Source: Niveispirillum lacus
GTDB lineage: Bacteria; Pseudomonadota; Alphaproteobacteria; Azospirillales; Azospirillaceae
Length of the DNA stretch: 64,000 nucleotides
NCBI RefSeq assembly: GCF_002251795.1
Contig: NZ_NOXU01000032.1
Location: forward strand, 310,001-374,000
Direction: 5' to 3'
The translations under genes were made by a program, and so were the position numbers. The notes below the pieces were generated by a model. That model made no database searches. It saw only the letters and a list, made by a program, of their open reading frames with translations, and was not told the DNA's origin. Below are positions 40,041 through 63,847 of the stretch, in pieces. Position 1 is the first letter of the stretch. Each line of letters starts with the position of its first letter.

Positions 40041-41296
40041 ACCGCAATTTCCGATTTAAGTTTATGCTTGGCAACCAGGGCGCGCACCTGATCTTGAAGA
40101 TTATTGGCCTCGATGATGTATCCGGGGATACCGGCCGCCAAAGCAGCCTGCACATCACCGTCACGATCACCGATCAGGAAGCTACCTTCCCGCACCACGG
40201 GCCAGCTTTCCAGCAGATCCAGAATCATCCCAGGCGCCGGTTTGCGCCAGTGATGGACCTGACGATATGCGTCGATCGACCCTTCAGGGCTATAGGGACA
40301 ATAGCGCCAATCGTCGATATGGGCGCCGTCACGGCCCAGTTCACCCTGCATCCAGGCATGCAGCGCATGGACTGTGGCCTCATCATAGAAGCCACGGGCC
40401 ACACCAGCCTGGTTGGTGACCACAAACACAAAATAGCCCTGCTCGTTCAAATAGCGCACAGCCTGACGCGCGCCCGGCAGCCATTCAATCTGATCCGGGC
40501 GGTGGGCGTAACCGATATCGGTATTGAGCACCCCATCACGGTCCAGAAAAACCGCGGGTCGACGCCACCAAGCCGGTATCTCCGTCTGTGCCCGCTGGAA
40601 ATCGTCTGGCACGCCGATATCAATAAAATAGCCCTCGCACAGCTCGCCCCCCAACCGGCCGGTTCGGGCAAGGACCGGCAGGATCTCCTGCTCCAGCGAA
40701 CAGGGCAGCGCTCCGATCATGTCGAGAACACCGATATCCAGCCAGTAAATGCCACCATTGATCACAGCGGGGCCAGGCCGGCCCGACTTCTCGGCAAAGT
40801 GGGTGATGCGGCCATCGGTATGCTCGACCGTTCCATAGCGGCTACCATCCGCTACGGCGCGGAGTGCAACCCTCCCCATATCTGCCTCACGCCAGTCCGC
40901 ATCAGCGCGCAGCGACAGATAATTCATGTCCAGAAGCGAATCACCGTTCAGCAGCAGGAAGCGTCGGTCGAGGAGGGAACGGGCATACAACAGGGCACCG
41001 CCGGTACCAGCCGGTTCCGGCTCGATCACACAGGTGATTTCCACACCCAGTTCAGGTGCCTTGTCGATCACGCTCTGCATCTGATCGCCCAAATAGCCTG
41101 CCAGCAGGATGATGCGGCGGAACCCGTGCCGGGCCAGATTGGCAATGAGATGCTCCAGGAAGGGCACGTCCCCGACCGGCAGCAACGGTTTCGGGGTATT
41201 ATCTGTCAGCCGGCCAAGGCGGGTGCCGCGTCCCCCGACCAGGATAACCGCCTGCGGTCCCGACACAATCTGCGCTTGGACCTGGGCTTTGGACAT
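40037..41296 (-). CDS. hddC-gmhB: Fused HddC (heptose-1-P guanylyltransferase) and GmhB (heptose bisphosphatase)
   Basis: 419 residues from ATG 41296 (AGGGG just upstream); the frame is open to 41401. The N-terminal half (about 15-235) is a sugar-1-phosphate nucleotidyltransferase: AVILVGGRGTRLGRLTDNTP, KPLLPVGDVPFL, LLNGDSLLDMNY, GYFIDIGVPDDF. The C-terminal half (about 243-400) is a HAD phosphatase of the GmhB type: VFLDRDGVLNTDIGY, VVTNQAGVARGFY, CPYSPEG and LIGDRDGDVQAAL. GmhB removes the 7-phosphate of heptose-1,7-bisphosphate, and HddC then forms GDP-heptose, so the fusion joins consecutive steps. Partners hddA and gmhA are at 55.8 and 60.9 kb. HddC versus another nucleotidyltransferase is inferred from these partners. 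Confidence 0.87.
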   Translation of the reverse strand: MSKAQVQAQIVSGPQAVILVGGRGTRLGRLTDNTPKPLLPVGDVPFLEHLIANLARHGFRRIILLAGYLGDQMQSVIDKAPELGVEITCVIEPEPAGTGGALLYARSLLDRRFLLLNGDSLLDMNYLSLRADADWREADMGRVALRAVADGSRYGTVEHTDGRITHFAEKSGRPGPAVINGGIYWLDIGVLDMIGALPCSLEQEILPVLARTGRLGGELCEGYFIDIGVPDDFQRAQTEIPAWWRRPAVFLDRDGVLNTDIGYAHRPDQIEWLPGARQAVRYLNEQGYFVFVVTNQAGVARGFYDEATVHALHAWMQGELGRDGAHIDDWRYCPYSPEGSIDAYRQVHHWRKPAPGMILDLLESWPVVREGSFLIGDRDGDVQAALAAGIPGYIIEANNLQDQVRALVAKHKLKSEIAV

Positions 41297-41475
41297 TTCC
41301 CCTGCAATCCTGGCAAACAACACGCACACTCCTCGTCGACCGTCCTGGACATACGAAACAGCGTTCAAGCTAGAAATCAACCTCACCAATTGATCTAGCA
41401 CGATGGGTTGTTCTTTTGCGACGACGCATGTACCTCTGTGGGCGCTATGCCTTATGGTCGGGACAGGAACTAAGA

Positions 41476-42417
41476 ATGATTCTCGTTACAGGAGCCAGCG
41501 GCTTCCTGGGTCGCCACACAATGGCTGTGCTGCGCGCCCGTTATGGGGCCGAGACGGTGGTCGGTGTTTCATCCGCCGATTCAGATTTGATGCAGTTCGA
41601 TCAGGCCCTGGCCCTTCTGGACCGGGTCAAGCCAGAGGTGGTTCTGCACTTCGCCGCTTATTCCGGTGGGATTGGTGCCAACCGTACCTACCCGGCGGAT
41701 TTTTATTTTCGGAATACCATCCTTACCGCCAACATGTTCGAGGCCTGTGCCCGCCGTGGGGTTGGAAAGCTGATTTATCCCATGGGGGGCTGCTCCTACC
41801 CCGCCAAGGCGACCAGCCCGATCAGCGAAGACCAGCTCTGGTGTGGCTATCCGCAACCGGAGAGCGCCCCCTACTCCACCGCGAAAATGATGGGCACGGT
41901 CGCCGCTCGATCCTATCGGTTCCAGCATGGGGTGAAGGCCACCGTCGTCATTCCTGGCAACATGTATGGCGAGTACGACAACTTCCATCCCTTGGACAGC
42001 CATGTCGTCCCGGCCATGGTCCGCCGCTATTACGAGGCACAGCTCAACGGCCTGGATGAAGTGGTGATGTGGGGCACCGGCACACCACAACGCGATTTTG
42101 TCTATGCCGCCGATGTCGCGGCGCTGATGCCCTTCTTCATCGACAATGATATTGGCGAAGGACCGGTCAATCTGTCGTCGGGGACCCGCACTCCAATTAA
42201 GGAACTGGCCGAGACCATTGCTAAGCTGGTGAAATTCGAGGGGCGCATCACCTGGGATACCGAGAAGCCGGACGGGCAGATGGTGAAGATCTTCGCGACC
42301 GACCGTATGGCACAGATGGGCCTCTCCTGCCCCACGCCGCTGGAAGCCGGCCTTCGCAATACCATCGACTGGTTCGCTGCGAACTATGCGACCCGTGGTG
42401 ATGGGCTGCGCCTATGA
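41476..42417 (+). CDS. SDR, GDP-L-fucose synthase-like epimerase/reductase
   Basis: 313 residues from ATG 41476. It is an extended short-chain dehydrogenase: NAD(P) loop GASGFLGRH, HFAAYSGGIGANRTYPADF, and active site YSTAKMMG after the conserved GGCSYPAKA. The GGIGAN and YPxNxx-type features put it near GDP-fucose synthases (WcaG/Fcl), which epimerise and reduce 4-keto GDP-sugars. No GDP-mannose 4,6-dehydratase is in the window, so a role on GDP-4-keto-heptose, as in Campylobacter Cj1428, is an inference. It is divergent from hddC-gmhB and overlaps the next gene by four bases. Confidence 0.83.
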   Translation: MILVTGASGFLGRHTMAVLRARYGAETVVGVSSADSDLMQFDQALALLDRVKPEVVLHFAAYSGGIGANRTYPADFYFRNTILTANMFEACARRGVGKLIYPMGGCSYPAKATSPISEDQLWCGYPQPESAPYSTAKMMGTVAARSYRFQHGVKATVVIPGNMYGEYDNFHPLDSHVVPAMVRRYYEAQLNGLDEVVMWGTGTPQRDFVYAADVAALMPFFIDNDIGEGPVNLSSGTRTPIKELAETIAKLVKFEGRITWDTEKPDGQMVKIFATDRMAQMGLSCPTPLEAGLRNTIDWFAANYATRGDGLRL

Positions 42418-43181
42418 TTTACGTTATTGGTGGCGACGGTTTTGTTGGTTCGGCCTATATTCGGCTGCTGGAACGACTGGGCTTGCCTCACACCAAGGTA
42501 ACCCGCGCAAATTTTGATGAATTGCGCGGGTCATCATGTGATGTGCTGATCAATGCCAACGGCAACAGCAAAAAATTCATGTCGGTGCGCGATCCGGTCT
42601 GGGACTTCGATGCGTCCGTGACCAGTGTTGTGCGCAGTCTGGAATTTTTCAAACCTGGGCGATACGTGTTCCTGTCATCAGGCGATGTCTACCCAGAAAC
42701 GGACACGCCCTGCAAAAGCCTGGAAAGCCAGACCATCGACCTTTCCCGGATCAGCCGCTACGGTTTGCATAAATATCTGGCGGAACAGGCCGTCCAGGGT
42801 GTTCATCGTGACTGGCTGATCATGCGTATGGGCGGATTTGTCGGCCAAGGGCTTCGCAAAAACGCCATCTATGACATGATGCAGGGTGACCCGGTCTGGC
42901 TGTCACCCGAAAGCACTTTGCAGTTCATCAATACCGACAGCGCCGCCGCGCTGGTCTGGTCATTGGTTCAGGCAGGTGTAACCAAGGAAATCATCAATCT
43001 TGGTGCTACCGGCATGGTTCGGTTGGCCGATGTGCATGCGCATCTGGGATCGACGTCCACGTTCAAACCAGATGCCCCGACCATTCGCTACGAACTGTCT
43101 CTGGAAAAGCTGGCGCAGTTGCATGGGCAGGTGCTGCCCGACAGCCAAAGCGAAGTCTTCCAGTTCCTTGATAAACAGTGA
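42414..43181 (+). CDS. Short NAD-dependent epimerase/dehydratase-family protein
   Basis: 255 residues, overlapping the preceding SDR by four bases (ATGA). It has an N-terminal nucleotide loop VIGGDGFVGSAY and a probable catalytic RYGLHKYLAE (YxxxK) with SSGDVYPE before it. It is shorter than typical extended SDRs (about 310) and lacks most of the C-terminal substrate domain. It resembles dTDP-4-dehydrorhamnose reductase-like or 4-keto reductase proteins. The substrate is unknown; its place between the GDP-fucose synthase-like gene and wecB suggests nucleotide-sugar reduction. Confidence 0.8.
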   Translation: MIYVIGGDGFVGSAYIRLLERLGLPHTKVTRANFDELRGSSCDVLINANGNSKKFMSVRDPVWDFDASVTSVVRSLEFFKPGRYVFLSSGDVYPETDTPCKSLESQTIDLSRISRYGLHKYLAEQAVQGVHRDWLIMRMGGFVGQGLRKNAIYDMMQGDPVWLSPESTLQFINTDSAAALVWSLVQAGVTKEIINLGATGMVRLADVHAHLGSTSTFKPDAPTIRYELSLEKLAQLHGQVLPDSQSEVFQFLDKQ

Positions 43182-50459: not shown

Positions 50460-51617
50460 TTACACAAACGCTTCAAGAGCCATTTCAACCTTTTTGAACT
50501 GCTCCGGGATATTGAGCTTCTCTTCGACTGCAATTTTGCAGTTGGCTACAAGTTGTTCATATCGAGAAGTGCCAACAATTGAAGATGCTTCTTTCATAGC
50601 CTCGATGAAGGCCCCCAACGACCAATCCTCCATGAGCAAACCACAGCCGAACTCGTCAATCACCTCCGCACATTGGGGATGTGGTGCACAAATCGGCGGC
50701 ACGCCGGAAGCAATCGCCTCGAAGAACTTATTCGGTGAAGCATAGAGTTGATTGATGTCGGTGGGAGCCCACATCACGATACTGTACGCATATTGTTGCC
50801 TAACAGCATCAAGCTCCAGCGAGCTTAGAACGCCAAGATAGCGGATATTATTACGCTCTTGAACAGATTTGAGTATCTGGTTGGCATCTTCACTATAGGC
50901 TGGCCCGGCCAAGTCTATTCTGTAGCCGGACAAGGCGGAATCCAGCAGATAGTGGCATTGCGTCTGCCTGCCGATGGTGCCAGCATACATGAATGAAGGC
51001 TCCGTCTTGACGGCGGGCGGCGTAAATCCCTGGTGCGTCAAGTTCAAGACCTCAACAACACGCGCATCATTCCACCCCAGTGTTGTGAGGTCATGATCGG
51101 CGCGGCGCCGTTCGGGCACGATCACCAGATCCACGAGATGTTTTGCCATCTCGTTCAGACGGATAAAGTTCTCCCCGCCCGCCTGCCGCTGATGGTGCAG
51201 GCTTTCCAACATGTAATAGATGCAAAGCGGGGGCCGGCGTTTTTGCAGAAGCAGAGCTGGCAGAACAGCCGCATTCACGAACACAACAATGTCCGGTTCA
51301 ACCTCTTTCAGGAACCGTTCGATCTGGATGTTGTACTCAATATGGAACGTCTCATCATGCGGCGGCATCCGCGAGCCGAAACGGACAATCCGTAGCCCCT
51401 CCCGTTCGTGCATCTGTCGCCGGAACTTCATATCCGGTTCAACGATATAGGCCTCTGCAGCCCCATATTTCTGGGCCAGAGCGGTGACCATCAGTTCCAG
51501 TTGCTGATAGCCATAACCAAGTGCAACATCGGCCAGCCCGACAACCTTGACGCCGGTGCCACGCATTTTCGGGCGCTCCAGCAGGGGAACCATATCCGTC
51601 ATCATAGGGATCACCAT
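50460..51617 (-). CDS. GT4-type glycosyltransferase
   Basis: 385 residues from ATG 51617. It has GT-B layout with a donor half: PSFMYAGTIGRQTQCHYLL, IRYLGVLSSLELDAVRQQYAYS, and a final YASPNKFFEAIASGVPPICA, where Glu is the second acidic residue of the GT4 site. The first half (about 15-180) has VVGLADVALGYGYQQLELMV. It overlaps the 1050-residue protein gene by seven bases, so it is translated after it. Donor and acceptor unknown. Confidence 0.84.
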   Translation of the reverse strand: MVIPMMTDMVPLLERPKMRGTGVKVVGLADVALGYGYQQLELMVTALAQKYGAAEAYIVEPDMKFRRQMHEREGLRIVRFGSRMPPHDETFHIEYNIQIERFLKEVEPDIVVFVNAAVLPALLLQKRRPPLCIYYMLESLHHQRQAGGENFIRLNEMAKHLVDLVIVPERRRADHDLTTLGWNDARVVEVLNLTHQGFTPPAVKTEPSFMYAGTIGRQTQCHYLLDSALSGYRIDLAGPAYSEDANQILKSVQERNNIRYLGVLSSLELDAVRQQYAYSIVMWAPTDINQLYASPNKFFEAIASGVPPICAPHPQCAEVIDEFGCGLLMEDWSLGAFIEAMKEASSIVGTSRYEQLVANCKIAVEEKLNIPEQFKKVEMALEAFV

Positions 51618-54600
51618 TCGCGAGCGGAGAAGCGGGAGACAGTGGAACCGTCGATCGTTGCCGGGGCGTTTTCGGGCGCCAGCATTTCTTCGACAAGTCT
51701 TCCCGGTGTGAAATAGTCACCCAATTTCCGGTGCAGCCAATCGGCAGAGTGGGCGTAAGCTGTGTAATTGTCCGCCAGCAGGCTCAACCCCTTGGTCAGT
51801 TCCTCGCATATCTTTCCGTCCGACCCATCATCGACATACACGATGGCGCCTGGCTGTATGGCGATCGGGTCTTTTCGCATCAGCCAATGGATCTTGACCT
51901 TGCTGATATAGAAGTCGATATCACTGTAGGCGTTACAAAAGCCCAGCCAGATGCTGCGCCCTTCGGATGCGACAGGCAGCACGACCGAGAAGACCGTATC
52001 TGCGGCGCCATTTACAATCACATCCGTTCGGGAAATCTCGTTGCTGAAACCTTCCTTGTCCTGGAACGCAAAAACGATACGGGCGGTCAGGTCGTTAATG
52101 GCCACCTGCATGTGGTTAAAGGTCAACCAGATATGGGTGGCGCCGGCGGGGACCGGAATGTGGGTATAACTGGTGCAGCCCCGGCGTACCTTCACCTGAC
52201 GGGGAATATGGGTCATTTCCTGGTTGGTCAGCGGCTGACCGTTACTGGCATATTCGGCCCACCGCGCCGGGGGGACGACATTCCAGGCCAGGATCTCTTC
52301 CTCCGCGACAGCGGCATTATGGAATTCATGCGCATGTTCATTGATGATCTGCGACATCCAGGTCCCGGCCGGGATGATGGACGGTTTGCGCGCCGCGATG
52401 GCCTCTGTGAAGATACCCGAACTGCGCGCGACATAGTTTGTGCGCAGGTAGGGAACGATGACGGCATCGACAGTCTTCAGAATGGCATTATAGGACGGCA
52501 CATCCAGGGCGCCCTTGGCGATTGAAACCATGCCGGCCGGCAGGCTGCGCAGCCTGCGGTCCAGCAACTGAATGCTTGTCAGCATATTGACGTCGATATG
52601 CGCGGATTTTGGCGCATAGACCTGCAGAAGAAACTCGATCTGCGTGGCCTCGGCAGACCGGCTGGCCAGCAGACGTCCCATGACGGCAGGAAGGTGATGG
52701 AACCCCTTTTCTTTGCGCGCATCGCCTAAGAACCCGATCTTGATGGCGCTCTTTGGCTGTTCCTGGTCGGCATCCACGGCGCCGGCATCCTGCAGGATCT
52801 GTGTGAAACTCTCCAGTTCCCCCTGCAAGCGCATGACCGCGCGCGTTACAACCTCTGTGGTTTCATCCATCCTTTGCCCCGGCAGGAAGCGAATCCCGCC
52901 ATAGGTCGCCGGCACCCACCGCGCAACAGCCATTTCACGGCAGCTTAACTTGGCAATGTGGAAGCCGTTATGGAACAGACTGCTGAAGCCAAGCCAGACG
53001 GCACCAGCCTTGGGCGGGACGGAAATGACCACCGAATGTTTGTCACGCCGCCCGGCCTTCACCGTGAGAAGCTGAACATCCTCAGAATGTTTGGCGCCAC
53101 CATGATCGGTGAAGCCGGCGACGACACGCACACCCATGCGTTCGCCCGGCAAGCCCATTCCATCCGTCTCAAACGTGATCCACAGATGGGTACAGCCGGG
53201 GGACAGCAACAATGATACGTATGCATCCATATGCAGGCGAAGCAACAGGCGATCGTCGCTCAGGCACTCCGGTGCATCACGGTCCACACCAGAATATTCA
53301 TAGGCGCGCCAAACAATATCCCGGGCATGTTGAATGGACAGTTCACGGCCGCTGGAGAAGCTACGTTGATGGTAGCTGAAATTCTTCAAATCCAGTTCTG
53401 CGGCCAATGAATTGCCGGCAGGGACGATGGAGGGCGTGGCTGTTTCCTCCAGCGCTTTCACCCGCCCATTCACCGCACGCTCGTCGCAGGCGCTGTAGCT
53501 GTCAGCAAAGACAGCGATTTCGTTCCTGGCGAGGATCGTCTGCAGCGACTTAGGGTCCTGCATGGTCTGTGTGGAGGGCTTCAGCAGGACCTTGCTGCTG
53601 ACTTGTACCCGTTCCTGAACCACCGACCGATCACCAACGACAGACAACAGCCATGGCAGGTCTGACATCCTGGCGAGGTTGGTTGCGACCTGGTTACCGA
53701 AAGCAGCGCTATTCAGTGATCCCGTCTCATGAATGACAGCAACATTAATCCCTTGCTCAGTGGAACGTTCCTGCCACACAGGCGCGGCGGCCAGCGCATC
53801 GGGATCAACCGGGACCGGCAAGGTCTTGAACGGCACAGTGCCGAACCGGTTGTACTGATCGGTAAGCGGGTCTGTGTCGGTGTAGAAGTTCAGCCGTGTG
53901 GTCCGACGGATATCATCCATCATGGCAAAGGCGGTACGGTGCGAATGGACCGGCCATTCCTGCCCATTGTGAAAAGTCGAATAGCCATCATAGACGTTGC
54001 GGCGGAACAAAAGATGATAGCGGGGCCGCCGCAATGCGCGATGTCTGCGAAGCGCCGACGACAAAGCCGTTATCTCGAAAAACGCCATGGTCGGGAAGAA
54101 GATGTGATCCTCTTCGCCCAGCGCCAACCCCTCAACGACGCGGATCAACGCCTTTTTGAAGGACTCCGCTGCGATGCCCATGTTGGTCAGGTTGGAGAAA
54201 TACTGCTGATCCCGCTCAGGCAACTGCTGCGCAGCCGTACCGTTCTGGGCCAGCGCCTGACGGAACAGACGACGCTGGCGACCGATCTCCCAGCGGCGAC
54301 GCTGCGGCCCCTTTGGCGGCGGGGGATCGAACGTCTCCGCCGCTTCGGACTGTTCCAAGCCCGTCAGCAAACGGCGTGCGATCACCGCCCGTTTAAAACG
54401 CAGGGTATCCAGGGCGCTAAGCGGGAATTGGGTATTGTAATGCTGGAAGCTGTTCAGATTGTTTGCGGCAGCAAAGATCAAGCCGCTTTTTGAATAGCGG
54501 CGACGCAGCCAACGGCGATCATCAACGGTAAAGCCACTCTCAGCGGGCTTTTGCTCGCTCGGCCGTTGTCCCCAGATGTCATATTCAAATGCCTTGATGA

Positions 54601-54763
54601 TCCTGAATTGACGGTTGCCGTCATCGTTGAAAGCCGAATTTACGACCAGAATACATTCAAACCCATGCTTCTCAGCAGCACGCAGCACTTGCTCTGCGTA
54701 GACCAGATAGTGGCCACCAACATCGTGTATCGAAGGATCGCACAGAACAAACCGCTGCCGCAT
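51611..54763 (-). CDS. Very large GT4-like protein with two inserted beta-sandwich modules
   Basis: 1050 residues from ATG 54763 (GGGGAG six bases upstream). It opens with MRQRFVLCDPSIHDVGGHYLVY, similar to the start of the 1294-residue protein at 57010. An incomplete GT-B region (to about 500) precedes module 1 (about 53195-52930), then a GT4 donor-like domain with IGFLGDARKEKGFHHLPAV and IVPYLRTNYVARSSGIFTEA (about 690-850), then module 2 (about 52142-51880) and a C-terminal DDGSDGKICEELTKGLSLL part. The modules look like beta-sandwiches that might bind carbohydrate. This is a likely multi-step glycosyltransferase; no family name fits the whole chain. Confidence 0.8.
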   Translation of the reverse strand: MRQRFVLCDPSIHDVGGHYLVYAEQVLRAAEKHGFECILVVNSAFNDDGNRQFRIIKAFEYDIWGQRPSEQKPAESGFTVDDRRWLRRRYSKSGLIFAAANNLNSFQHYNTQFPLSALDTLRFKRAVIARRLLTGLEQSEAAETFDPPPPKGPQRRRWEIGRQRRLFRQALAQNGTAAQQLPERDQQYFSNLTNMGIAAESFKKALIRVVEGLALGEEDHIFFPTMAFFEITALSSALRRHRALRRPRYHLLFRRNVYDGYSTFHNGQEWPVHSHRTAFAMMDDIRRTTRLNFYTDTDPLTDQYNRFGTVPFKTLPVPVDPDALAAAPVWQERSTEQGINVAVIHETGSLNSAAFGNQVATNLARMSDLPWLLSVVGDRSVVQERVQVSSKVLLKPSTQTMQDPKSLQTILARNEIAVFADSYSACDERAVNGRVKALEETATPSIVPAGNSLAAELDLKNFSYHQRSFSSGRELSIQHARDIVWRAYEYSGVDRDAPECLSDDRLLLRLHMDAYVSLLLSPGCTHLWITFETDGMGLPGERMGVRVVAGFTDHGGAKHSEDVQLLTVKAGRRDKHSVVISVPPKAGAVWLGFSSLFHNGFHIAKLSCREMAVARWVPATYGGIRFLPGQRMDETTEVVTRAVMRLQGELESFTQILQDAGAVDADQEQPKSAIKIGFLGDARKEKGFHHLPAVMGRLLASRSAEATQIEFLLQVYAPKSAHIDVNMLTSIQLLDRRLRSLPAGMVSIAKGALDVPSYNAILKTVDAVIVPYLRTNYVARSSGIFTEAIAARKPSIIPAGTWMSQIINEHAHEFHNAAVAEEEILAWNVVPPARWAEYASNGQPLTNQEMTHIPRQVKVRRGCTSYTHIPVPAGATHIWLTFNHMQVAINDLTARIVFAFQDKEGFSNEISRTDVIVNGAADTVFSVVLPVASEGRSIWLGFCNAYSDIDFYISKVKIHWLMRKDPIAIQPGAIVYVDDGSDGKICEELTKGLSLLADNYTAYAHSADWLHRKLGDYFTPGRLVEEMLAPENAPATIDGSTVSRFSAREW
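51880..53195 (-). repeat. Two-copy THxWxTF/WLGF module inside the large GT4-like protein
   Basis: Copy 1 (about 53195-52930) reads THLWITF ... VVAGFTDHGG ... HSVVISVPPKAGAVWLGF ... HIAKL. Copy 2 (about 52142-51880) reads THIWLTF ... IVFAFQDKEG ... VFSVVLPVASEGRSIWLGF ... YISKV. The shared pattern over about 85 residues suggests a duplicated beta-sandwich, separated by a GT4-like domain. Confidence 0.75.
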
Positions 54764-54808
54764 TTTTGGCTCCCCGAAACCTGTAATCGGCACATCACAA
54801 ATTAGGAC

Positions 54809-54853: not shown

Positions 54854-55792
54854 TCACACGTTCGAATAAATCTCGTTCCGGATCATCCGGTAGCCCTTGA
54901 TCAACTCCTGGATTCCCATCTCCAAAGAATGGGCGGGCCGCCAGCCAGTGGCCTCCAGCTTGGCGTTGGAGACGATATAGTCGCGCTTATCCGGGTCCTC
55001 GCCCACCGGGGCCTCCAGATAGGCGAAAGCGGGCACCTGTTCCTTGATCTTGGCACAGAGTTCCAGCTTGGAGAGGTTCGCGTCCGACAAGCCCATATTG
55101 TAGACTTCGCCATTCATCGCTTCGAACTGGTTCATGCCATGCATGAAACCCTTGGCCACATCGCGGATATGGATGTAGTTGCGTTTGAAATGCCCTTCAA
55201 AAATTACCACAGCCCGATCGCGGACCGCACGATAGGTAAAATCATTGACCAGCAGGTCAATACGCATGCGGGGCGCAAAACCGAAAACAGTGGCCAAACG
55301 GAACGAGATTGCGTTGCCGCGATCCATGACGGCCTTTTCGGCATCCACCTTTGTCTGGCCATAGATGCTGATCGGGCGCAGCGGCGACTGCTCGTCACAG
55401 AAAATACCAGCTTCACCAACACCATACCCACTGTTGGTAACCGGGAAGATAACGCGCTGGTCGGATGACAGCATGCCGAGCAACATGCGCACCGCATCCA
55501 GATTGATCGAGGTCGCGGCCAGCGGGTCCTGCGCACAGGCGGGCGCACCAACCACGGCCGCCAGCGGGATCACCCAATCGGCGTCCTTAGCATATCGAGC
55601 CACCAACGAGCGGTCACGGCAGTCACCCCGGACGGCATCGAAGGCAGGATGCGCCGCGTGCAGCCCCAGCGAGTTGAAGCCATGCTGGAAGTTGTCGATG
55701 ACCGTAACGGCATAGCCATCTTCCAGCAACAGCGGAACCAGGATACTGCCGATATAGCCACCGCCGCCGGTGATCAGAACCTTGCCCTTCAT
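54854..55792 (-). CDS. SDR, Cj1427-like GDP-heptose C4 dehydrogenase
   Basis: 312 residues from ATG 55792, with GAGGAAAAA upstream. It is an extended SDR: VLITGGGGYIGSILVPLLL, IPLAAVVGAPACAQDP, NSGYGVGE, active site IYGQTKVDAEKA, and FRLATVFGFAPRMRIDLLVN, FKRNYIHIRDVAKGF, GEDPDKRDYIVSNAKLEATG. These last stretches closely recall Campylobacter jejuni Cj1427, which oxidises C4 of GDP-D-glycero-alpha-D-manno-heptose with tightly bound NAD(H) recycled by 2-oxoglutarate. hddA is 44 bases upstream, as in the Campylobacter heptose locus. The Cj1427 match is from memory, not from a search. Confidence 0.82.
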   Translation of the reverse strand: MKGKVLITGGGGYIGSILVPLLLEDGYAVTVIDNFQHGFNSLGLHAAHPAFDAVRGDCRDRSLVARYAKDADWVIPLAAVVGAPACAQDPLAATSINLDAVRMLLGMLSSDQRVIFPVTNSGYGVGEAGIFCDEQSPLRPISIYGQTKVDAEKAVMDRGNAISFRLATVFGFAPRMRIDLLVNDFTYRAVRDRAVVIFEGHFKRNYIHIRDVAKGFMHGMNQFEAMNGEVYNMGLSDANLSKLELCAKIKEQVPAFAYLEAPVGEDPDKRDYIVSNAKLEATGWRPAHSLEMGIQELIKGYRMIRNEIYSNV

Positions 55793-55836
55793 TTTTTCCT
55801 CACATTTCGCCCGAAAACCAGAACCCAAAGGGGCGA

Positions 55837-56835
55837 CTATCGCATGATGATGGTGGACCCTAGTGTGTCTAGGCCGACAGGAACCACCCGTGCCGGCGAC
55901 ACAGCCTCAATGACAGACTTTTGATAAGCTGGCGGAACAACCATCAACAAGAAGCCGCCACCACCAGCGCCGCACAGTTTACCACCAAGTGCCCCATGGC
56001 GCCGTGCAACATCGTAAAGGGTGTTAATGTCGCTGGAGCTGATCTTGCTGGACAAGGACAGTTTGATCTTCCAGCCCTCATGCATCATGGCGCCAAAATC
56101 ACGCAGCATCGTCTCGGGATCATTCCCCTGGAGAAGATCCATGCCCTGATCCACCAAGGCCAGAAGATCGGACAACTCCCGGTCAACCTTGTTTTCGGTC
56201 GTTTTCTGAATCTGTTCGTCCAGGGTTGCCGAGGCATGCCGCGTCTGGCCGGTATAAATCAGCAGCAAGGACGAGCAGAGCGCCTCCAGACAGTCCGAAC
56301 TCATGGCGACAGGGCGGATGCTGAAACCGTTTGCATCGAAGTCGAAACGATTGATTCCACCAAAGGCCGCATGCAGTTGATCCTGCACGCCCACCCGCTC
56401 CTGCAAAAGATCACGCTCGATATGGATGGCCTCCTTGGCCAAGTCCAACTTCGTCCGGGGTCGGTTTTGCAGGGCACTGAGAAGATTGACAAAACCAACG
56501 GTGAATGCCGAGGACGACCCAAGCCCCGTAGAGGCCGGCATGTCCGACATAATCGAAATATCGAGATCTTCGTTACAACCATACACAGACAAGCCAACGC
56601 GAACCACATTGTGCTGAATGTCCGAAGCCTGCGTGACTGTTTCCAGACGGGAATAACTTAACCGATATCGATAAGGCTGAATACCGCTCAATCGGAGTGC
56701 GGATATGTAAATGTATTTATCTATCGCCATCCCAATAACGGCACCGCGGCGACCAGCCCTCTTGAAATACTCGGGGTAATCAGTACCGCCCCCGAAAAAA
56801 CTCACCCTCAACGGCGTCCTGCACGTTATTATCAT
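55837..56835 (-). CDS. hddA: D-glycero-alpha-D-manno-heptose 7-phosphate kinase (GHMP family)
   Basis: 332 residues from ATG 56835, with GGGGAAT upstream. GHMP kinase motifs: RVSFFGGGTDYPEYF (motif 1), ASTGLGSSSAFTVG (motif 2, ATP loop) and LCGAGGGGFLLMVVPP (motif 3). The form FFGGGTDYPEYF is typical of HddA, which phosphorylates C1 of heptose 7-phosphate, and of the related fucokinase-like kinases. The presence of gmhA, gmhB and hddC in the same locus supports HddA. It is followed by the Cj1427-like gene. Confidence 0.9.
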   Translation of the reverse strand: MIITCRTPLRVSFFGGGTDYPEYFKRAGRRGAVIGMAIDKYIYISALRLSGIQPYRYRLSYSRLETVTQASDIQHNVVRVGLSVYGCNEDLDISIMSDMPASTGLGSSSAFTVGFVNLLSALQNRPRTKLDLAKEAIHIERDLLQERVGVQDQLHAAFGGINRFDFDANGFSIRPVAMSSDCLEALCSSLLLIYTGQTRHASATLDEQIQKTTENKVDRELSDLLALVDQGMDLLQGNDPETMLRDFGAMMHEGWKIKLSLSSKISSSDINTLYDVARRHGALGGKLCGAGGGGFLLMVVPPAYQKSVIEAVSPARVVPVGLDTLGSTIIMR

Positions 56836-56934
56836 AATGAATTCCCCACAACGCACAAAGTACCCATAGAGCCAAGCTCAGCCAGCTCGCAAGAGAAAAC
56901 TTTACTTTCCTTTTGAACGGTCATTTAGCAAGCG

Positions 56935-56948
56935 AACGAACATTCGTT
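56935..56948 (-). promoter_or_regulatory. Palindrome upstream of hddA, possible operator
   Basis: AACGAA-CA-TTCGTT is a perfect 6-2-6 inverted repeat in the AT-rich 174-bp gap between hddA and the 1294-residue gene, about 100 bases before the hddA start. No matching repeat is seen elsewhere in the window. A regulator site is possible, but chance is not excluded. Confidence 0.3.
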
Positions 56949-57009
56949 TCCAACATAACGCATTCAAGGTAAATTTTCCAATAAATTTATGGGCTTGGCA
57001 TTTTTTGCT

Positions 57010-57297
57010 TCAGGGCCAAACAAGGTCTTCCGCAAGGCACACCGGGGCACCGGCGATCTCTACGCGGAACGGCTTCCCACGCGCTGAGACAGGCAGGCTC
57101 AGGGAGAAGCCACAATAGCCCTCCCCGAACCCGGCTTTCCGGACATCCGGCCGTTCGCCCCATGCCGAAGTGGAAACCAATAGCCCGTCATCGTTAACGA
57201 TTTCGACAGTCAGACGGCGCCGCGGTGCCGCAGTGTCATAGGCCCAGCCGGTGACCCGGCCGTCAGCCGAAACCGAATCCACATGGCCGGCGACGAC
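57010..57297 (-). repeat. GWA-type module, fourth copy
   Basis: The last 95 codons encode VAGHVDSVSADGRVTGWAYD ... GERPDVRKAGFGEGYCGFSL, matching the modules at 34566-35160 and 36794-37060 in the positions GW-A, R-P-D, AG-x-G-x-G and F. Confidence 0.75.
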
Positions 57298-60200
57298 CGG
57301 AGCCTGCTCACCAGGAGAGGGGGGGGGCAGCAGCGAGACCGTCTGCGAAAGCGATGCCAGTGCCAATCCCCGTTCCGCACCGACCGACATAAGCCGAACC
57401 GTCCCCGTTTCGATAAACTGCGCTTCCATTGGATCGTGAAACCGGACGCGGATACCGCCCGCTACTGGTTCGGCATGTGCGGCTGCCAGGTGCAGGGACT
57501 GACCCAGATTTATCTGGATGGAAGGCCAGTCTCGTCCCCCAAGATCCAACAGTGTCATCTCCACACTTGGCCGCCAACCGCATAGCTGGGCGACCGCCAA
57601 GCTAGCCGGACCCGTGAGCGGCCCCCGAGCATAAGGAATGCCATTGCTGCTCTTTGCCACCCCTTGCCACCCCTGTCGGGTTTCTAAGAGGATCGCCGTC
57701 TGTTCCTGCCCAGGCTGAGGCCACGGGACATGACACATAGAAAGCTGGCAATCTTCTATGGTGATGGGTTGATCGTTGCCCCTGAGTTCAATCCCGACCA
57801 GCACCAAAGCCAGTGGCGAAGACTGGGTGCGACATAAAAAGGTCGTGTGGCCGGAATCACTTCCGACTTGGTGTGCATGTTGAATACCGGAGAGATGCAG
57901 ATTGGGCGCCGACGGCAACGATGCGCTCGCCTGTCCGTTGCTGCACCACAATGTCAGTTGGAAAGGCGCATCGGCCGGCAACACAACCCAGTAGCGGACC
58001 ACGCTGCCGGCGGACAAAGAGATCCTGCCACCTATGACGGGCACGGGCCGACCATCCGGGAAGCTCCAGACAACGTGACCTGACAACACTTTCAGCATCG
58101 CCAGCAGTAACGGCTCCAGTCTGGCGGCATTCTCATTTGTGGACAGCAGGGAAAGCCGCTGTGCAGTATCCATGCCTTCCAGCAGCAGCAGACCCCGACG
58201 CAGCAGAGGCAGACTTGTCGGTTCCCCGGCAGTGAGCAAGGAAACACAGGCATTAATGGCGCGCCAGTCGGCACTCCATTCGTGGTAATCGGGGATAGAC
58301 AACGGCGTCAGGGCCAGCGCGGCGCCCCCCGACAAGCCCAGCACCTGAGCCGCCAACTGCGCAAACCTGCGGTCTCTGCCCTCGCCGGCCTGTTGTGTCC
58401 TGGCGATTGCTAAACCGGCCAGTGCCACCTCTCGTCGGGCATCCGGGCTGATAGAAAGTCGGCAGATCTCCTGGCCAAACCGATCCGGTGTATCTGCGAT
58501 GGGCAAGCGGATGCCGGTGGCATCCATCAACTCCCGCAAAGCGTATGACGTACCCACCACGGCCCGGCCCAGGGACAGCGCCTCCAAGACCTTGATAGGA
58601 CTGCCGGCACCGCTGAAAATCGGCAGAACCACTATCTGCGCCGCAGCATAGAAAGGTCGAAGATTGGATACACGTCCGACAAGAGCGATATTCGGATGGA
58701 CTGGCCAATCCTGCTGATCGGCGATATCGCCTACGACGGCCAGGGTCATATCCATCGGCGCCAGCAACGGCAGGTACACTTTTTCGATGAACCAACGGAG
58801 CGCGTCAATATTCGGCTTGTGCGCGGAACTGACGAACAGGAGATCAACCTGTCGCCAGCCAGCCAATTGCTGGACCAAAGCCTCAAGACGTTGCTGATCC
58901 TCAATCCAGCTTCCCGCCAGAAGCGGCAGGGCATCCAGCCCGGCAATGGCAGCCAAATCGGCGGGACCGATCGGATGGTCGGGGACCGGTGCCGGCAAAT
59001 GTCGGACCGCGAGCGATGGCAAATGTCGACGCAGCAGATCTGCTTCGAAGGTGGAGAGCGATACCGCCATCGCAGATCGGGCGAGCATGGCCAGTTCCCG
59101 CTTCAGATCCTGTTCCGACAGGTCCCGATGCCCATAGATGGCCGTCTGGAAACTTTGGATATCATGAATTTCGCAAAGCACGGGAACCGGCCGGGGTTCG
59201 TCCAGCAGCCCCAACTTCTCTATCAAGGGTAGGTTGGTGATATAGTTCAAAACCACAAGTTCAGGGCGCTGCCGTGCGATAGACCGCCACAACGCAGCCG
59301 GGATCTGAAGACACGCGCGGTAGTGGATATCCCGCTCTATGGAGTATTCCCCCTTATCCTCGGCTGCCCTGAACAGGTCTTGCGCCGCCTGGGATGTAGC
59401 ATCCGGTGCATAGGAGCACACATGCACCGCAGCAAACGGGAACGCCGACAATGTCTCGTCCAGCGCGCGGGAGAAGTCGAACAGCGCATCTGCGCTGGCA
59501 GGCCGGTTCATCTGAACGAACAGTCCCGTGACTTGGCACCCCAGGTCAAATAGGCCCTGTAACTGCGACCGGGCAACGCTGCTGGCCCCATTACGCAGGA
59601 CCATCGCATTGCCATCCATCACAAACAGCACTGGCGGCCCCGGGACAGCGGGGGCGGCTGGAACGGTCCAGTCGTGAGCCTGCTCCAACACCGCCATGAA
59701 ATGGTCGGCCGATGCTTCGGAACGCCACGCTTGTGCAGCCGCCGCCGCTTGCTGCTGAAGACCAGCAAATCCGTCAGCGGCACGGCGAACCGCAGCGACA
59801 AAGTTTGCGGGCTCATCAAATGTAACAGTCCCGGTCGCGCCGCGGGTCTCCATCCACGACCCGCTGCTGGTCACCACCACTTTGCCGGCGCATTGGGCCT
59901 GAACCATGATACCGGAGCTGCGGGCTTGATACCGCTCACAATCGTAGGGGATCAGAACAATGTCGGCAGCGGCCAGCAGCCCATAGTAAGCCTGCGTATC
60001 GAGGGCCGAGGTCAAAAGCTGAACCTCCGGCGACGGGAACTGCCGCAAGCGCTGCCGCGCCTCCGGCACGGACGGCTCACCGCCTGCGACATTGAAGTTC
60101 GACTGCGCTAAAAGCCGGACCCGGCCGGTTCTGAAATGGCTGTCCCACATTTGCCGGACCATTTCCGGCAGGAGGGGGTAGCCCTTTTCCTCTCTGGCAT

Positions 60201-60894
60201 CGCCGATATAGGCAAGGGTCAGGGGGGCTTGCGGGCCAAAGCCGTTTGCATCCTTGTTTGCCACCTGCTCCAACGCACGCACCATGGCGGCTTGATCAAA
60301 TGGAATGGGCAGGGTGGAAGCCACGGCACGCAACAGCCGCCCACACAGTGCGGTCAACCGATCTGTGTCCGTATGGAAGCGAACGCGGCCTGACATCAAT
60401 TTGTTGGCGGCCAACCGCCCGAACAGCCCTGCCAGTTTCGAGCTGTAAGCCGGGTTCAGGTCACGCGGATCATAACGCAGGACAATGCTGAACCGGGGCA
60501 GGCCCGCCGCTCGCCATGGCGGTATTGCCGATAAGGACCATAGCAGTTGGGCCAATTGCGACCAGCCGAGCGTATGGATCAGGACCAGATCGTCCGAACC
60601 CGCCCCCGCCGCCGCCAGTTCCTGCAAAACATCATGACCGAAATGTCCCGAAGCCGGACGATGCGGCGGGATGTCGGACCAATGGTTCCAACCATATGAA
60701 AAGACGGGCCGGACCGCCTGCACACCCAAAGCCTGCTCCAAAGGGACATCATTATCCAAACGGAGCTGGCAATTAGCCAGAATTTGAACCTGCCATCCGC
60801 GCTGGACCGCCCCCTGCGCCACGGCGCGGGAATACTCAAAGTAATGCCCGCCCTGCGACGACAAGGAGTGATCGACAATGACCAACTGGCGCAT
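57010..60894 (-). CDS. Giant double-GT4 protein with C-terminal GWA module
   Basis: 1294 residues from ATG 60894; GTG 60912 or GTG 60924 are alternatives, the latter overlapping the gmhA stop. The N-terminal GT-B unit (about 1-420) begins MRQLVIVDHSLSSQGGHYFEYS and has a donor half LTLAYIGDAREEKGYPLLPEM and YQARSSGIMVQAQCAGKVVV. A second GT4 unit follows (about 450-870) with CEIHDIQSFQTAIYG, LLFVSSAHKPNIDALRWFI and IFSGAGSPIKVLEALSLG. A beta-rich stretch then leads to the C-terminal GWA-type module (95 codons, 57297-57010). Two complete transferase units suggest two consecutive sugar additions. It is just downstream of gmhA. Confidence 0.85.
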   Translation of the reverse strand: MRQLVIVDHSLSSQGGHYFEYSRAVAQGAVQRGWQVQILANCQLRLDNDVPLEQALGVQAVRPVFSYGWNHWSDIPPHRPASGHFGHDVLQELAAAGAGSDDLVLIHTLGWSQLAQLLWSLSAIPPWRAAGLPRFSIVLRYDPRDLNPAYSSKLAGLFGRLAANKLMSGRVRFHTDTDRLTALCGRLLRAVASTLPIPFDQAAMVRALEQVANKDANGFGPQAPLTLAYIGDAREEKGYPLLPEMVRQMWDSHFRTGRVRLLAQSNFNVAGGEPSVPEARQRLRQFPSPEVQLLTSALDTQAYYGLLAAADIVLIPYDCERYQARSSGIMVQAQCAGKVVVTSSGSWMETRGATGTVTFDEPANFVAAVRRAADGFAGLQQQAAAAAQAWRSEASADHFMAVLEQAHDWTVPAAPAVPGPPVLFVMDGNAMVLRNGASSVARSQLQGLFDLGCQVTGLFVQMNRPASADALFDFSRALDETLSAFPFAAVHVCSYAPDATSQAAQDLFRAAEDKGEYSIERDIHYRACLQIPAALWRSIARQRPELVVLNYITNLPLIEKLGLLDEPRPVPVLCEIHDIQSFQTAIYGHRDLSEQDLKRELAMLARSAMAVSLSTFEADLLRRHLPSLAVRHLPAPVPDHPIGPADLAAIAGLDALPLLAGSWIEDQQRLEALVQQLAGWRQVDLLFVSSAHKPNIDALRWFIEKVYLPLLAPMDMTLAVVGDIADQQDWPVHPNIALVGRVSNLRPFYAAAQIVVLPIFSGAGSPIKVLEALSLGRAVVGTSYALRELMDATGIRLPIADTPDRFGQEICRLSISPDARREVALAGLAIARTQQAGEGRDRRFAQLAAQVLGLSGGAALALTPLSIPDYHEWSADWRAINACVSLLTAGEPTSLPLLRRGLLLLEGMDTAQRLSLLSTNENAARLEPLLLAMLKVLSGHVVWSFPDGRPVPVIGGRISLSAGSVVRYWVVLPADAPFQLTLWCSNGQASASLPSAPNLHLSGIQHAHQVGSDSGHTTFLCRTQSSPLALVLVGIELRGNDQPITIEDCQLSMCHVPWPQPGQEQTAILLETRQGWQGVAKSSNGIPYARGPLTGPASLAVAQLCGWRPSVEMTLLDLGGRDWPSIQINLGQSLHLAAAHAEPVAGGIRVRFHDPMEAQFIETGTVRLMSVGAERGLALASLSQTVSLLPPPSPGEQAPVVAGHVDSVSADGRVTGWAYDTAAPRRRLTVEIVNDDGLLVSTSAWGERPDVRKAGFGEGYCGFSLSLPVSARGKPFRVEIAGAPVCLAEDLVWP

Positions 60895-60920
60895 AGCGTC
60901 CAACCCGGCAGTCACGAGAC

Positions 60921-61502
60921 TCACTCCACAGGCGCCATCGCGTTTTCCACTAGCTCGCAAATGGTGTGGCCGACAGCGATATGCATTTCCTGGATACGGG
61001 CCGTCATCGTGGACGGAACCGGCAGCCACAGGTCAGCCAGCGGTGTCATTGCGCCCTCCTTCGCCCCAGTCAAACCAATTGTGCGAATACCCATCTGGCG
61101 GGCCACATGCATGGCATCGACAACATTGGCGCTGTTGCCGCTTGTGGACAGACCGACCAGCACGTCACCGGCCCGGCCGACACCTCGCAGTTGGCGCGAA
61201 AACACATCGCGGAATCCGTAATCATTGCCGATGGCGGTCAGGGCGGACGTATCGACCGTGAGGGCAAGCGCCGCCAGCGGCGCGCGGTCGCGCATGAAAC
61301 GTCCCATCAACTCTGCCGCCAGATGCTGGCTGTCGGCAGCCGACCCACCATTGCCACAGAACATGACCTTGCCGCCGTTGCGCAGCGACGCGACCATGAT
61401 GTCGGCAGCTTCGACGACCTCTCCCGACAAATCCTGAAGTTTCTTGAAGTTTTCGGAGATCGTGGCAAAGGTCTCGATGACAGCGTTCAAATTGTTAGAC
61501 AT
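60921..61502 (-). CDS. gmhA: Phosphoheptose isomerase (sedoheptulose 7-phosphate isomerase)
   Basis: 193 residues from ATG 61502, chosen because the family N-terminus starts at MSNNLNAVIETF; the frame extends to TTG 61553. SIS-domain features: GGKVMFCGNGGSAADSQHLA, ALTVDTSALTAIGNDYGF, LVGLSTSGNSANVV, and the metal-binding EMHIAVGHTICELVE near the end. It converts sedoheptulose 7-phosphate to D-glycero-D-manno-heptose 7-phosphate, the first step of both heptose pathways. Downstream it may overlap the giant transferase gene; upstream is the FAD oxidoreductase gene. Confidence 0.94.
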   Translation of the reverse strand: MSNNLNAVIETFATISENFKKLQDLSGEVVEAADIMVASLRNGGKVMFCGNGGSAADSQHLAAELMGRFMRDRAPLAALALTVDTSALTAIGNDYGFRDVFSRQLRGVGRAGDVLVGLSTSGNSANVVDAMHVARQMGIRTIGLTGAKEGAMTPLADLWLPVPSTMTARIQEMHIAVGHTICELVENAMAPVE

Positions 61503-61549
61503 AGTGCCTCTGTATAATAGCGCCCCGATAGGAGGGGCATTTACACTAC

Positions 61550-62668
61550 TCAAGCCTGATAGCGCAGAGTATCGACCACCCGCTGTGCGATAGCAAGGGA
61601 GGAGGTCAAGCCGGGGGACTCTATACCGAATAGATGGACCAAGCCTGGGACATGATGGTCAGCCTCCGTTTGGAGCAAAAAGTCCGCCTGTTTTTCACCC
61701 GGCCCCGACAGTTTGGGGCGGATGCCGCAATAGGCCGGCACCAGAGCCCCATCTGGCAATCCAGGCCAATAGAGTCGGATGCGCTGATAGAAGGCGTCAG
61801 CGCGCCGTGGGTCCACCTGATAGTTCAGCGGACCTGACGGAAGCCATTCGACATCCGGGCCAAACCGTCCCTGCCCTGCCAGGTCCAGCGTCAGATGAAC
61901 TCCCAGACCACCATCCTCGGGGATCGGATAAATGAGACGACTGAATGGGGGCGACACGCCCTGCAGGGCATAATAGTTGCCTTTGGCATAATGGCGCGGT
62001 GGTATGTGGGCCGGATCATAGCCCAACAGGCTCCGGGCCACACTCCAGGCCTCAAGCCCCGCAGCATTGATCAACTCCCGGCAACAAATGGTCGTCGGCT
62101 CCCGACCACCAGTGTGAACCGTGAAGCCGGAACCAGTCCATTCCGCCCCAACAACCGGTGTCTCCCGCACAAGGATCGCACCGTGATCCTCCGCGTCACC
62201 CAATAGAGAGACCATCAATGCATGGCTGTCGACAATACCAGTGCTGGGCGACAACAACCCGGCCACACATCGCAACGCCGGTTCCAATTCCTGCACCCCA
62301 GCAGCATCCAACAGGCGCAGATCGTCAACGCCATTGGCACGTCCCTGGGCTAGCAGATCGTGAAGCTTTGATACCTGGGCGGTGTCGGTTGCCACCACCA
62401 GTTTTCCCAGGCGTCGATGCCCAATGCCGCGTTCCTGACAATACCGATAAAGCCGCTCCCGGCCATCGAGACATAATGCGGCGCGGACCGATCCTGTGGG
62501 ATAATAGAGCCCGGCATGGATAACTTCAGAGTTGCGCGAACTGATACCCTGGCCGAAATGCCTTTCCGCTTCCAGAATAAGCACCTCACGGCCAGCGATG
62601 GCCAACGCCCGGGCAACCGCAAGCCCGACTACCCCGCCACCAATAACCACTGAGCTCATCTGGTCCAC
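61550..62668 (-). CDS. L-2-hydroxyglutarate oxidase (LhgO) family FAD oxidoreductase
   Basis: 372 residues from GTG 62668 (GGAG eight bases upstream); ATG 62659 is an alternative. The N-terminus VVIGGGVVGLAVARAL is the FAD-binding loop, followed by GISSRNSEVIHAGLYYPTGS, the hallmark of the LhgO/L2HGDH group in the DAO fold. LSPSTGIVDSHALM, YPIPEDGGLGVHLTLDLAGQ and GIESPGLTSSLAIAQ complete it. The family oxidises L-2-hydroxyglutarate to 2-oxoglutarate and passes electrons to the quinone pool. Its place next to gmhA is unusual and fits recycling of the by-product expected from the Cj1427-like enzyme. Another 2-hydroxyacid or amine substrate cannot be ruled out. Confidence 0.85.
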   Translation of the reverse strand: MDQMSSVVIGGGVVGLAVARALAIAGREVLILEAERHFGQGISSRNSEVIHAGLYYPTGSVRAALCLDGRERLYRYCQERGIGHRRLGKLVVATDTAQVSKLHDLLAQGRANGVDDLRLLDAAGVQELEPALRCVAGLLSPSTGIVDSHALMVSLLGDAEDHGAILVRETPVVGAEWTGSGFTVHTGGREPTTICCRELINAAGLEAWSVARSLLGYDPAHIPPRHYAKGNYYALQGVSPPFSRLIYPIPEDGGLGVHLTLDLAGQGRFGPDVEWLPSGPLNYQVDPRRADAFYQRIRLYWPGLPDGALVPAYCGIRPKLSGPGEKQADFLLQTEADHHVPGLVHLFGIESPGLTSSLAIAQRVVDTLRYQA

Positions 62669-62941: not shown

Positions 62942-63847
62942 ATGAAAGCCGACCTGACCCATTTGGACCGGCTGGAAGCAGAGGGCATCTACATCATTCG
63001 CGAGGTTGCCGCTCAATTCCAGAAACCCGTCATGCTCTATTCCATCGGCAAGGACAGCGCCGTCATGCTGCATCTTGCCATGAAGGCCTTCTATCCCGCA
63101 AAGCCCCCCTTCCCCCTGCTTCATGTTGATACGGGATGGAAATTCAAGGAGATGATCACATTCCGGGACGAAACGTCGGCGCGGCTGGGCCTGGACTTGC
63201 TGGTGCATACCAATCCAGATGGGTTGGCACGCGGAGTCGGACCGTTCAGCCATGGTTCTGCGGTTCACACCGATGTGATGAAGACACAGGCGTTGAAGCA
63301 GGCGCTCGATCAATACGGCTTCGATGCCGCGTTCGGCGGCGCCAGGCGCGATGAAGAACGATCGCGGGCAAAGGAGAGGGTCTTCTCGTTCCGTGACCGC
63401 AGCCATGGCTGGGATCCCCGCAACCAACGACCGGAACTCTGGAACCTTTACAATGGCCGTATCGGCCCGGGAGAGAGTATCCGGGCCTTCCCCCTGTCCA
63501 ACTGGACCGAACAGGATGTGTGGGCCTATATCGCGCGGGAGAATATTCCCATCGTACCGCTTTACTTTGCTAAACCGCGCCCTGTCGTGGAACGGGACGG
63601 CACCTTGATCATGGTCGATGATGATCGCTTGCCGCTCCACCCCGGAGAGGTACCGCAGAACCGCTGGGTGCGGTTCCGCACACTGGGCTGCTACCCCCTT
63701 ACCGGGGCCATCGATAGTCAGGCGGACACTTTGGAGGCGATCCTGGCGGAACTGGCCGCAGCACGGCAATCCGAACGGCTGGGACGGCTGATCGACATCG
63801 ACGCCGGCGCTTCGATGGAACAGAAAAAGCGCGAGGGCTATTTCTAA
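62942..63847 (+). CDS. cysD: Sulfate adenylyltransferase subunit 2
   Basis: 301 residues from ATG 62942. It is a PP-loop ATP pyrophosphatase: [16 protein letters not shown] is the SxGKDS loop, with [27 protein letters not shown] and [12 protein letters not shown] later. It makes APS from ATP and sulfate with the CysN GTPase and ends REGYF as expected. The cysN start shares one base with its stop (TAATG), so they are coupled. The upstream 273 bp must hold the promoter; I see no riboswitch-like structure. The homologous NodP serves Nod-factor sulfation in rhizobia. Confidence 0.95.

Follow-up and report, generated by a model that had tools for sequence, protein, structure and literature searches.

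We analysed a 64,000-nucleotide (nt) stretch of the Niveispirillum lacus genome (contig NZ_NOXU01000032.1, positions 310,001 to 374,000; hereafter, the window), in which a minus-strand run of genes (62668-50460) encodes, in order, a flavoprotein of the L-2-hydroxyglutarate dehydrogenase family, a gmhA-like isomerase, a glycosyltransferase, an hddA-like kinase, a short-chain dehydrogenase/reductase (SDR) resembling Campylobacter Cj1427 and two further large proteins (Table 1). A sequence-only reading of the window had noticed the flavoprotein and the SDR and proposed that the locus encodes its own 2-oxoglutarate/L-2-hydroxyglutarate recycling loop. The observation as a whole is confirmed by the present analysis, and the interpretation is supported.

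Two enzymes at a heptose locus

The SDR open reading frame (ORF; 54854-55828, minus strand) specifies 324 amino acids from a TTG codon or 312 from an internal ATG. Its best match among solved protein chains is 6vo6 (E 1e-112, 379.5 bits), which is entered in the structure table as a 'putative sugar-nucleotide epimerase/dehydratease' and which we take to be Cj1427; the next chain scores 7e-26. In an alignment, the SDR is 55% identical to Cj1427, in keeping with the resemblance first noticed, and an alignment of eight such SDRs has 114 invariant columns, among them Y156 and K160, presumably the catalytic Tyr-Lys pair, both of which are invariant in a second alignment as well. The difference between 1e-112 and 7e-26 rules out an ordinary UDP-sugar epimerase, and the grouping with such epimerases that had been named as a counter-indication was not seen among the structure-chain matches. 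Judged by sequence, the SDR is an orthologue-level match to Cj1427. No other close copy of it was found in the genome, where the remaining matches are weak paralogues, and no relative was found among phage records at 1e-40. According to the available text of PMC10680097, Cj1427 holds tightly bound NADH, which 2-oxoglutarate oxidises in a ping-pong reaction that yields L-2-hydroxyglutarate.

The gene at 61550 had been read as an L-2-hydroxyglutarate oxidase-family flavoprotein. Its top NCBIfam family is indeed L-2-hydroxyglutarate oxidase (NF008726), at 206.6 bits under a cut-off of 299 bits, so the family assignment holds but the protein, which belongs to a sister clade, is no LhgO equivalog; Pfam PF01266 (6.6e-63) assigns it to the DAO-type family with an FAD-dependent fold. 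Its best solved chain is 3dme (8e-131), followed by 8w75 (1e-37; 'FI05204p' in the structure table), presumably Drosophila L-2-hydroxyglutarate dehydrogenase (L2HGDH). This identification fits the residue numbering of PMC10726252, in the available text of which Drosophila L2HGDH binds 2-oxoglutarate via Ser88, His92, Tyr289, His302 and Arg393, residues whose replacement by alanine lowers activity or abolishes it. The window's S47, H51, Y247 and H258 align directly with S88, H92, Y289 and H302, and R317, which stands in an invariant column, was matched to R393 by motif rather than by direct alignment. The same source describes Bordetella Bp3253 (PDB 3dme), the closest solved relative, as keeping all substrate residues and as being of unknown function, and suggests the same specificity for it (PMC10726252). 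On these grounds the flavoprotein is best described as an L2HGDH relative from a short sister clade, present in the genome as one strong copy plus two weak matches.

Specificity for another substrate had been named as a finding that would speak against the loop. With the substrate residues of L2HGDH kept here as in Bp3253 (PMC10726252, available text), the predicted substrate is L-2-hydroxyglutarate. The score below the curated LhgO cut-off and the unknown function of Bp3253 would suit a flavoprotein with some other substrate in the glycan pathway, such as a sugar derivative or another 2-hydroxy acid; we consider this very unlikely, as the substrate residues are retained and LhgO proteins above the cut-off occupy the same place at other loci (of ten proteins scanned, all from loci with linkage or gene adjacency, eight pass, the exceptions being L100 and L120; the protein of L059 also passes). 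Glycerol-3-phosphate oxidase was rejected as an assignment, the score on NF033460 being 111 bits against a cut-off of 460 and GlpO having Ile where L2HGDH has His302. The GlpO alignment also puts Phe at Tyr289, yet PMC10726252 reports, in its available text, that Tyr289 is conserved in GlpO, and only the His position was used. A role of the LhgO-family gene in glutarate catabolism was likewise rejected, since no CsiD match was found in the genome, which therefore seems to lack the known route from glutarate to L-2-hydroxyglutarate.

The flavoprotein gene adjoins gmhA, as originally noted, with 47 nt between its stop codon and the likeliest gmhA start, an ATG at 61502 with GAGG upstream (the gmhA-like ORF is open from 61553). 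Only a few bases follow gmhA before the next gene, whose ORF overlaps gmhA and perhaps truly starts at a GTG near 60915. Genes of the gmhA, hddA and hddC/gmhB types, that is, for GDP-heptose synthesis, are present at the SDR locus at the family level; since the NCBIfam equivalog scores lie below the curated cut-offs, the names gmhA, hddA, hddC and gmhB rest on similarity and context. Homologues of the hddA-like kinase (50-63%) occur in seven of 80 related SDR loci, counting those where the kinase is the best query, and homologues of the fucose-synthase-like SDR (58-70%) occur in L062, L095, L106, L128 and L135. The hddC-gmhB fusion and the pair of SDR genes at 41416-43181 would complete the window's GDP-heptose set, the pair being a candidate for the reduction of the 4-keto heptose. 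Its two genes overlap by 4 nt and recur together close to the Cj1427-like SDR in Kordiimonas and elsewhere (L062, L095, L106, L135). A Deinococcus rfbC query brought up no RmlC-type epimerase in the window at 1e-3, and a promoter and terminator scan of the window gave sites no more numerous than in shuffled sequence.

Table 1. Genes of the heptose locus, by position in the window
Position	Strand	Assignment	Basis or remark
61550..62668	-	L-2-hydroxyglutarate dehydrogenase-family flavoprotein, short Bp3253/3DME-like clade	372-aa (amino acid) ORF; opens the minus-strand run
60921..61502	-	gmhA-like sedoheptulose-7-phosphate isomerase (SIS gene)	TIGR00441, 199.1 bits (cut-off 209.45)
57010..61029	-	Large protein with glycosyltransferase group 1 domains	Pfam PF13692
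55837..56856	-	hddA-like GHMP kinase, candidate D-glycero-D-manno-heptose 7-phosphate kinase	NF049969, 111.9 bits (cut-off 600)
54854..55828	-	Cj1427-type SDR, predicted 2-oxoglutarate-reset GDP-heptose C4-dehydrogenase	Structure-chain match and alignment
51611..54793	-	1060-aa protein downstream of the SDR, probable glycosyltransferase by context	No NCBIfam match
50460..51617	-	385-aa protein, probable glycosyltransferase by inference	No NCBIfam match
40037..41401	-	hddC-gmhB fusion: nucleotidyltransferase and heptose-bisphosphate phosphatase	NF049965, 114.2 bits; NF006506, 134.6 bits; both below cut-off
41416..42417	+	GDP-L-fucose synthase-like SDR, candidate C4-reductase of the same heptose	Family match
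42414..43181	+	Second small SDR, partner of the reductase in related loci	53-63% homologues in L062, L095, L106, L135

Linkage and co-occurrence of the SDR and LhgO-family genes

A scan of GTDB genomes returned at least 544 relatives of the SDR, of which the best 80 of 544 were kept as loci with a stored flank of up to 10 kb. Eight of these 80, from several phyla, have an LhgO-family gene within the flank, compared with about 0.42 expected at random (P ~2e-8, assuming independence and with the expectation scaled from 50 genomes). The SDR stop and the lhgO start are 5 nt apart in a member of the Planctomycetia (L067), and in an Omnitrophota locus (L120) the LhgO-family gene follows hddC by 4 nt; with one of two linked Verrucomicrobia (L092, gap 28 nt, and L124), gaps to the SDR or hddC in these loci span 4-28 nt. 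The others are two Pseudanabaena loci that are near-copies of each other (L117, L126), a deltaproteobacterium (L141) and a Hyphomicrobium in which about 7 kb separate the two genes (L100). Fifty of the 80 genomes, chosen to contain all eight linked ones, were examined further, so that the nine linked copies among 51 give no estimate of frequency, which the 80-locus figure does; one of the nine is a broken LhgO-like fragment, and in G126 a second SDR copy has such a fragment about 10 kb away. Beyond the 80 loci, an LhgO match starts 13 nt past the SDR stop in G260. In G086, lhgO is the neighbour of gmhA, and the SDR sits on a different contig.

Plasmids offer a further case. Seven plasmid records contain the SDR, and four contexts were inspected, one of them unannotated, the plasmid gene tables being incomplete; a Solidesulfovibrio magneticus plasmid has the SDR, hddA-, hddC- and gmhA-like genes and, beside the gmhA-like gene, an lhgO that at 327.7 bits exceeds the cut-off. 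As a side observation, an hddA-like kinase lies about 4.4 kb from an LhgO-family gene in a genome 71% complete in which no Cj1427-like SDR was detected (G300 C199, L238).

The history of the linkage was traced on a tree built by a quick method from 85 of 108 flavoprotein sequences (22 of the 28 in the Azospirillum set and one fragment were dropped, and the unlinked rows were hand-picked). The label 'linked to GDP-heptose SDR' (12 rows) occurs in the short clade as well as in the long one and needs at least seven changes, at least five of them forced by strongly supported branches. These changes may be gains or losses, and repeated assembly is likelier than one inherited arrangement across both clades.

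The sequence-only reading had looked to a survey of genomes for an association between lhgO-like and Cj1427-like genes, and one emerges not just from linkage and the tree but also from co-occurrence. Among 299 Pseudomonadota genomes, with at most six or seven candidates scored per genome and query, the SDR is present in 15 and the flavoprotein family in 105; all 15 SDR genomes have the family, versus 90/284 of those without the SDR (Fisher P 8e-8, or 2e-7 minus the window's genome). By genus, all 12 SDR genera are among the 65 of 154 that have the family (P 2e-5). Genomes with an hddA-like kinase are enriched for the family overall (27/38 vs 78/261); within these 38, it accompanies the SDR in 15/15 and occurs in 12/23 without it (P 0.001), the latter a weak enrichment (P 0.06).

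Several results weigh against a partnership of the two enzymes. No LhgO-family gene lies within the stored flank in 72 of the 80 loci, many of which are cut by contig ends, and in the 50 SDR genomes examined from the GTDB scan, the LhgO family is matched at 1e-50 in 43 and goes unmatched in 7, so that the SDR does not require the partner; no match at that threshold accompanies the SDR in Kordiimonas gwangyangensis (G082) or Methylobacterium phyllostachyos (G124). Short-clade genes are also found in unrelated settings (phosphonate, quinoprotein, amino acid), and we saw no measured activity for any short-clade flavoprotein. Linkage was also compared with that of 98 SDR paralogues among the matches listed in the 50 genomes (one orthologue fragment, G119 C611, was dropped), two of which, both of CDP-sugar type, have an LhgO gene no more than 10.5 kb away: with these counted, the contrast with 8/80 is weak (P 0.04), and without them it is stronger (P 0.0015). 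In the window's order (82 genomes), the SDR is present in 22 and the flavoprotein family, which is near-core, in 74, with no association between them (21/22 with the SDR vs 53/60 without, P 0.68). Finally, the co-occurrence statistics ignore kinship, and several SDR genomes come from shared genera.

This last point would favour lifestyle or phylogeny as the source of the association, large glycan-rich environmental genomes tending to hold both genes. Such an origin is highly improbable, because gmd, an accessory GDP-sugar gene found in 160 of the same 299 genomes, shows no association with the flavoprotein family (55/160 with gmd vs 50/139 without, P 0.66), and proximity to an LhgO gene is confined to just those two of the listed paralogues.

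The results from the window's order bear on a different explanation, in which the flavoprotein is a general clean-up enzyme for L-2-hydroxyglutarate from all sources that stands by chance at the edge of a glycan region. The genome yielded no second close copy of it, its family is near-core, and just 2 of the 21 order genomes that have both genes, the window's and that of a close relative (G074), hold them no more than 10 kb apart; taken alone, the window is thus weak evidence. No SDR match was found in 20 flavoprotein loci picked from the 74 genomes (about 9 kb each side), and two Azospirillum plasmid regions hold the flavoprotein among sugar or glycan genes without the SDR. Among the 20 loci, gmhA adjoins the flavoprotein gene in G066 and G039, and five loci (G011, G040, G007, G008 and G066) have an hddC/gmhB-like match at a distance of up to about 9 kb; in G066, from the window's genus, lhgO adjoins gmhA, a gmhB-like match follows, and the SDR is on another contig. 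General clean-up leaves unexplained the tight SDR linkage in other phyla, the tree result and the fact that lhgO stands next to gmhA in three genomes of the window's genus that have the SDR (the window's, G074 and G066), and we regard it as unlikely. The window's arrangement, common to its sister G074, is local, and the partnership of SDR and flavoprotein is wider.

A CDP-sugar cassette with a related SDR

LhgO-family genes also accompany a more distant type of SDR. In Calothrix and Nostoc, lhgO (620 bits on the LhgO model in Calothrix) stands between the SDR gene and rfbF, which encodes glucose-1-phosphate cytidylyltransferase and is above the cut-off in both. All four Deinococcus plasmid records with the long LhgO form have rfbF, lhgO, SDR and rfbC in this order and in one direction, overlapping or within 5 nt, with rfbC identified by annotation there and by family in Calothrix. 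The best solved relative of the Calothrix cassette SDR is 6vo6 (1e-26 vs 1e-16); for the one Deinococcus cassette SDR compared, it is again 6vo6, by a small margin (1e-19 vs 4e-16). From these matches, the cassette SDR is a distant Cj1427 relative. An alignment shows a PRMRxD stretch common to GDP- and CDP-type SDRs, possibly a 2-oxoglutarate site; UDP-glucuronate decarboxylases have similar stretches. In Deinococcus, the cassette is followed by a Gfo/Idh or SAF-domain protein. The Calothrix, Nostoc and Deinococcus loci together are L157, L158, L180, L183, L184 and L185.

The plasmid contexts come from 213 records with the long LhgO form, 11 of which were inspected, and 46 with the short form, 7 of which were inspected, with flanks of 5-8 kb. 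Within those flanks, the annotation shows no such SDR beside the long form in Niallia, Streptomyces, Priestia, Parageobacillus, Bernardetia, Pseudomonas and Sinorhizobium, or beside the short form in two Azospirillum records, Salipiger, Haematobacter and Variovorax. In Agrobacterium, the gene for the short form neighbours galE within an O-antigen region. On a Rhodovulum plasmid (L178, 4365-8035), a short-clade flavoprotein is found near a CDP-type SDR and rfbC, in a setting of dTDP-sugar genes (rfbA, rfbD) with toxin-antitoxin genes in between.

A predicted shuttle from sugar oxidation to respiration

Gene identities at the family level, conserved substrate residues, recurrent linkage and co-occurrence are established; both reactions in N. 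lacus, the link to quinone and the final sugar are inferred. It is probable, in our judgement, that the locus encodes a 2-oxoglutarate/L-2-hydroxyglutarate loop running from sugar oxidation to respiration. The products of gmhA, hddA and hddC-gmhB would supply GDP-heptose, which the Cj1427-type SDR would oxidise at C4, its bound NADH being reset by the reduction of 2-oxoglutarate to L-2-hydroxyglutarate. The flavoprotein would return L-2-hydroxyglutarate to 2-oxoglutarate and pass the electrons to the respiratory quinone pool, so that the two acids would serve as a soluble electron shuttle through which respiration pulls an unfavourable sugar oxidation. The net reaction would convert GDP-heptose and quinone into 4-keto-GDP-heptose and quinol, with 2-oxoglutarate acting catalytically; the loop would thereby regenerate the co-substrate and keep an inhibitor of 2-oxoglutarate enzymes from accumulating. 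Reduction of the resulting 4-keto sugar would probably fall to the fucose-synthase-like SDR at 41416.

A broader proposal is that LhgO-family enzymes are dedicated partners of 2-oxoglutarate-reset nucleotide-sugar dehydrogenases, for GDP-heptoses in several phyla and for the CDP-sugar cassette in Deinococcus and cyanobacteria, the shuttle letting the respiratory chain drive sugar-nucleotide oxidation. We put this forward tentatively, as something that may well hold but that we stop short of calling probable; under it, the CDP-type SDR is predicted to use 2-oxoglutarate.

Parts of the scheme have precedents. One is Campylobacter jejuni Cj1427/MlghA, the GDP-heptose C4-dehydrogenase, with its 55% identical SDR, GDP-heptose genes alongside and a reset by 2-oxoglutarate predicted to be shared; the difference is that no enzyme for L-2-hydroxyglutarate disposal is mentioned in the available text of PMC10680097 or PMC7949155. 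In L-serine synthesis, SerA and D-2-hydroxyglutarate dehydrogenase likewise drive biosynthesis by reducing 2-oxoglutarate and reoxidising the product with a second enzyme (PMC5974017, available text), but the enantiomer is the opposite one, the flavoenzyme is unrelated (PMC10726252, available text) and the product is an amino acid rather than a nucleotide sugar. E. coli LhgO is a quinone-linked membrane dehydrogenase which, in the CsiD-LhgO (GlaH-LhgD) pair, disposes of the L-2-hydroxyglutarate made by its operon partner (PMC6265302, available text), although that partner is a glutarate hydroxylase, for which the window's genome has no match. Cj1427 chemistry, quinone-linked LhgO and the D-enantiomer version with SerA are already known; the L-version for nucleotide sugars is proposed here. 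Nucleotide-sugar dehydrogenases of the WbpB type also use 2-oxoglutarate as the hydride acceptor for a bound cofactor, with a different fold and with 2-oxoglutarate coming from a partner aminotransferase.

The pairing had been put forward as one not known from heptose loci, and in the text available from the open-licence literature we found no description of an SDR/lhgO pairing with heptose; heptose and L-2-hydroxyglutarate came together in PMC10680097 alone, and the rfbF product name together with hydroxyglutarate was not found in that literature. A published survey of lhgO neighbourhoods names csiD/gab and lhgR contexts, without 'heptose' in its main text as available (PMC8206213), and in a genome paper that mentions hydroxyglutarate oxidase, the lhgO is, in the part available, of the csiD-gab type. 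The proposed loop would give a fate to the L-2-hydroxyglutarate from Cj1427-type enzymes, a point that the available text of PMC10680097 does not address, would tie glycan synthesis to respiration and would give LhgO-family genes a role outside lysine and glutarate breakdown. It also predicts new biochemistry in the form of a 2-oxoglutarate-dependent CDP-sugar dehydrogenase.

Next to the locus, cysD (62942-63847), encoding a sulfate adenylyltransferase subunit and scoring above its cut-off, is divergent from the flavoprotein gene, and sulfotransferase-like proteins are suspected at other positions in the window.

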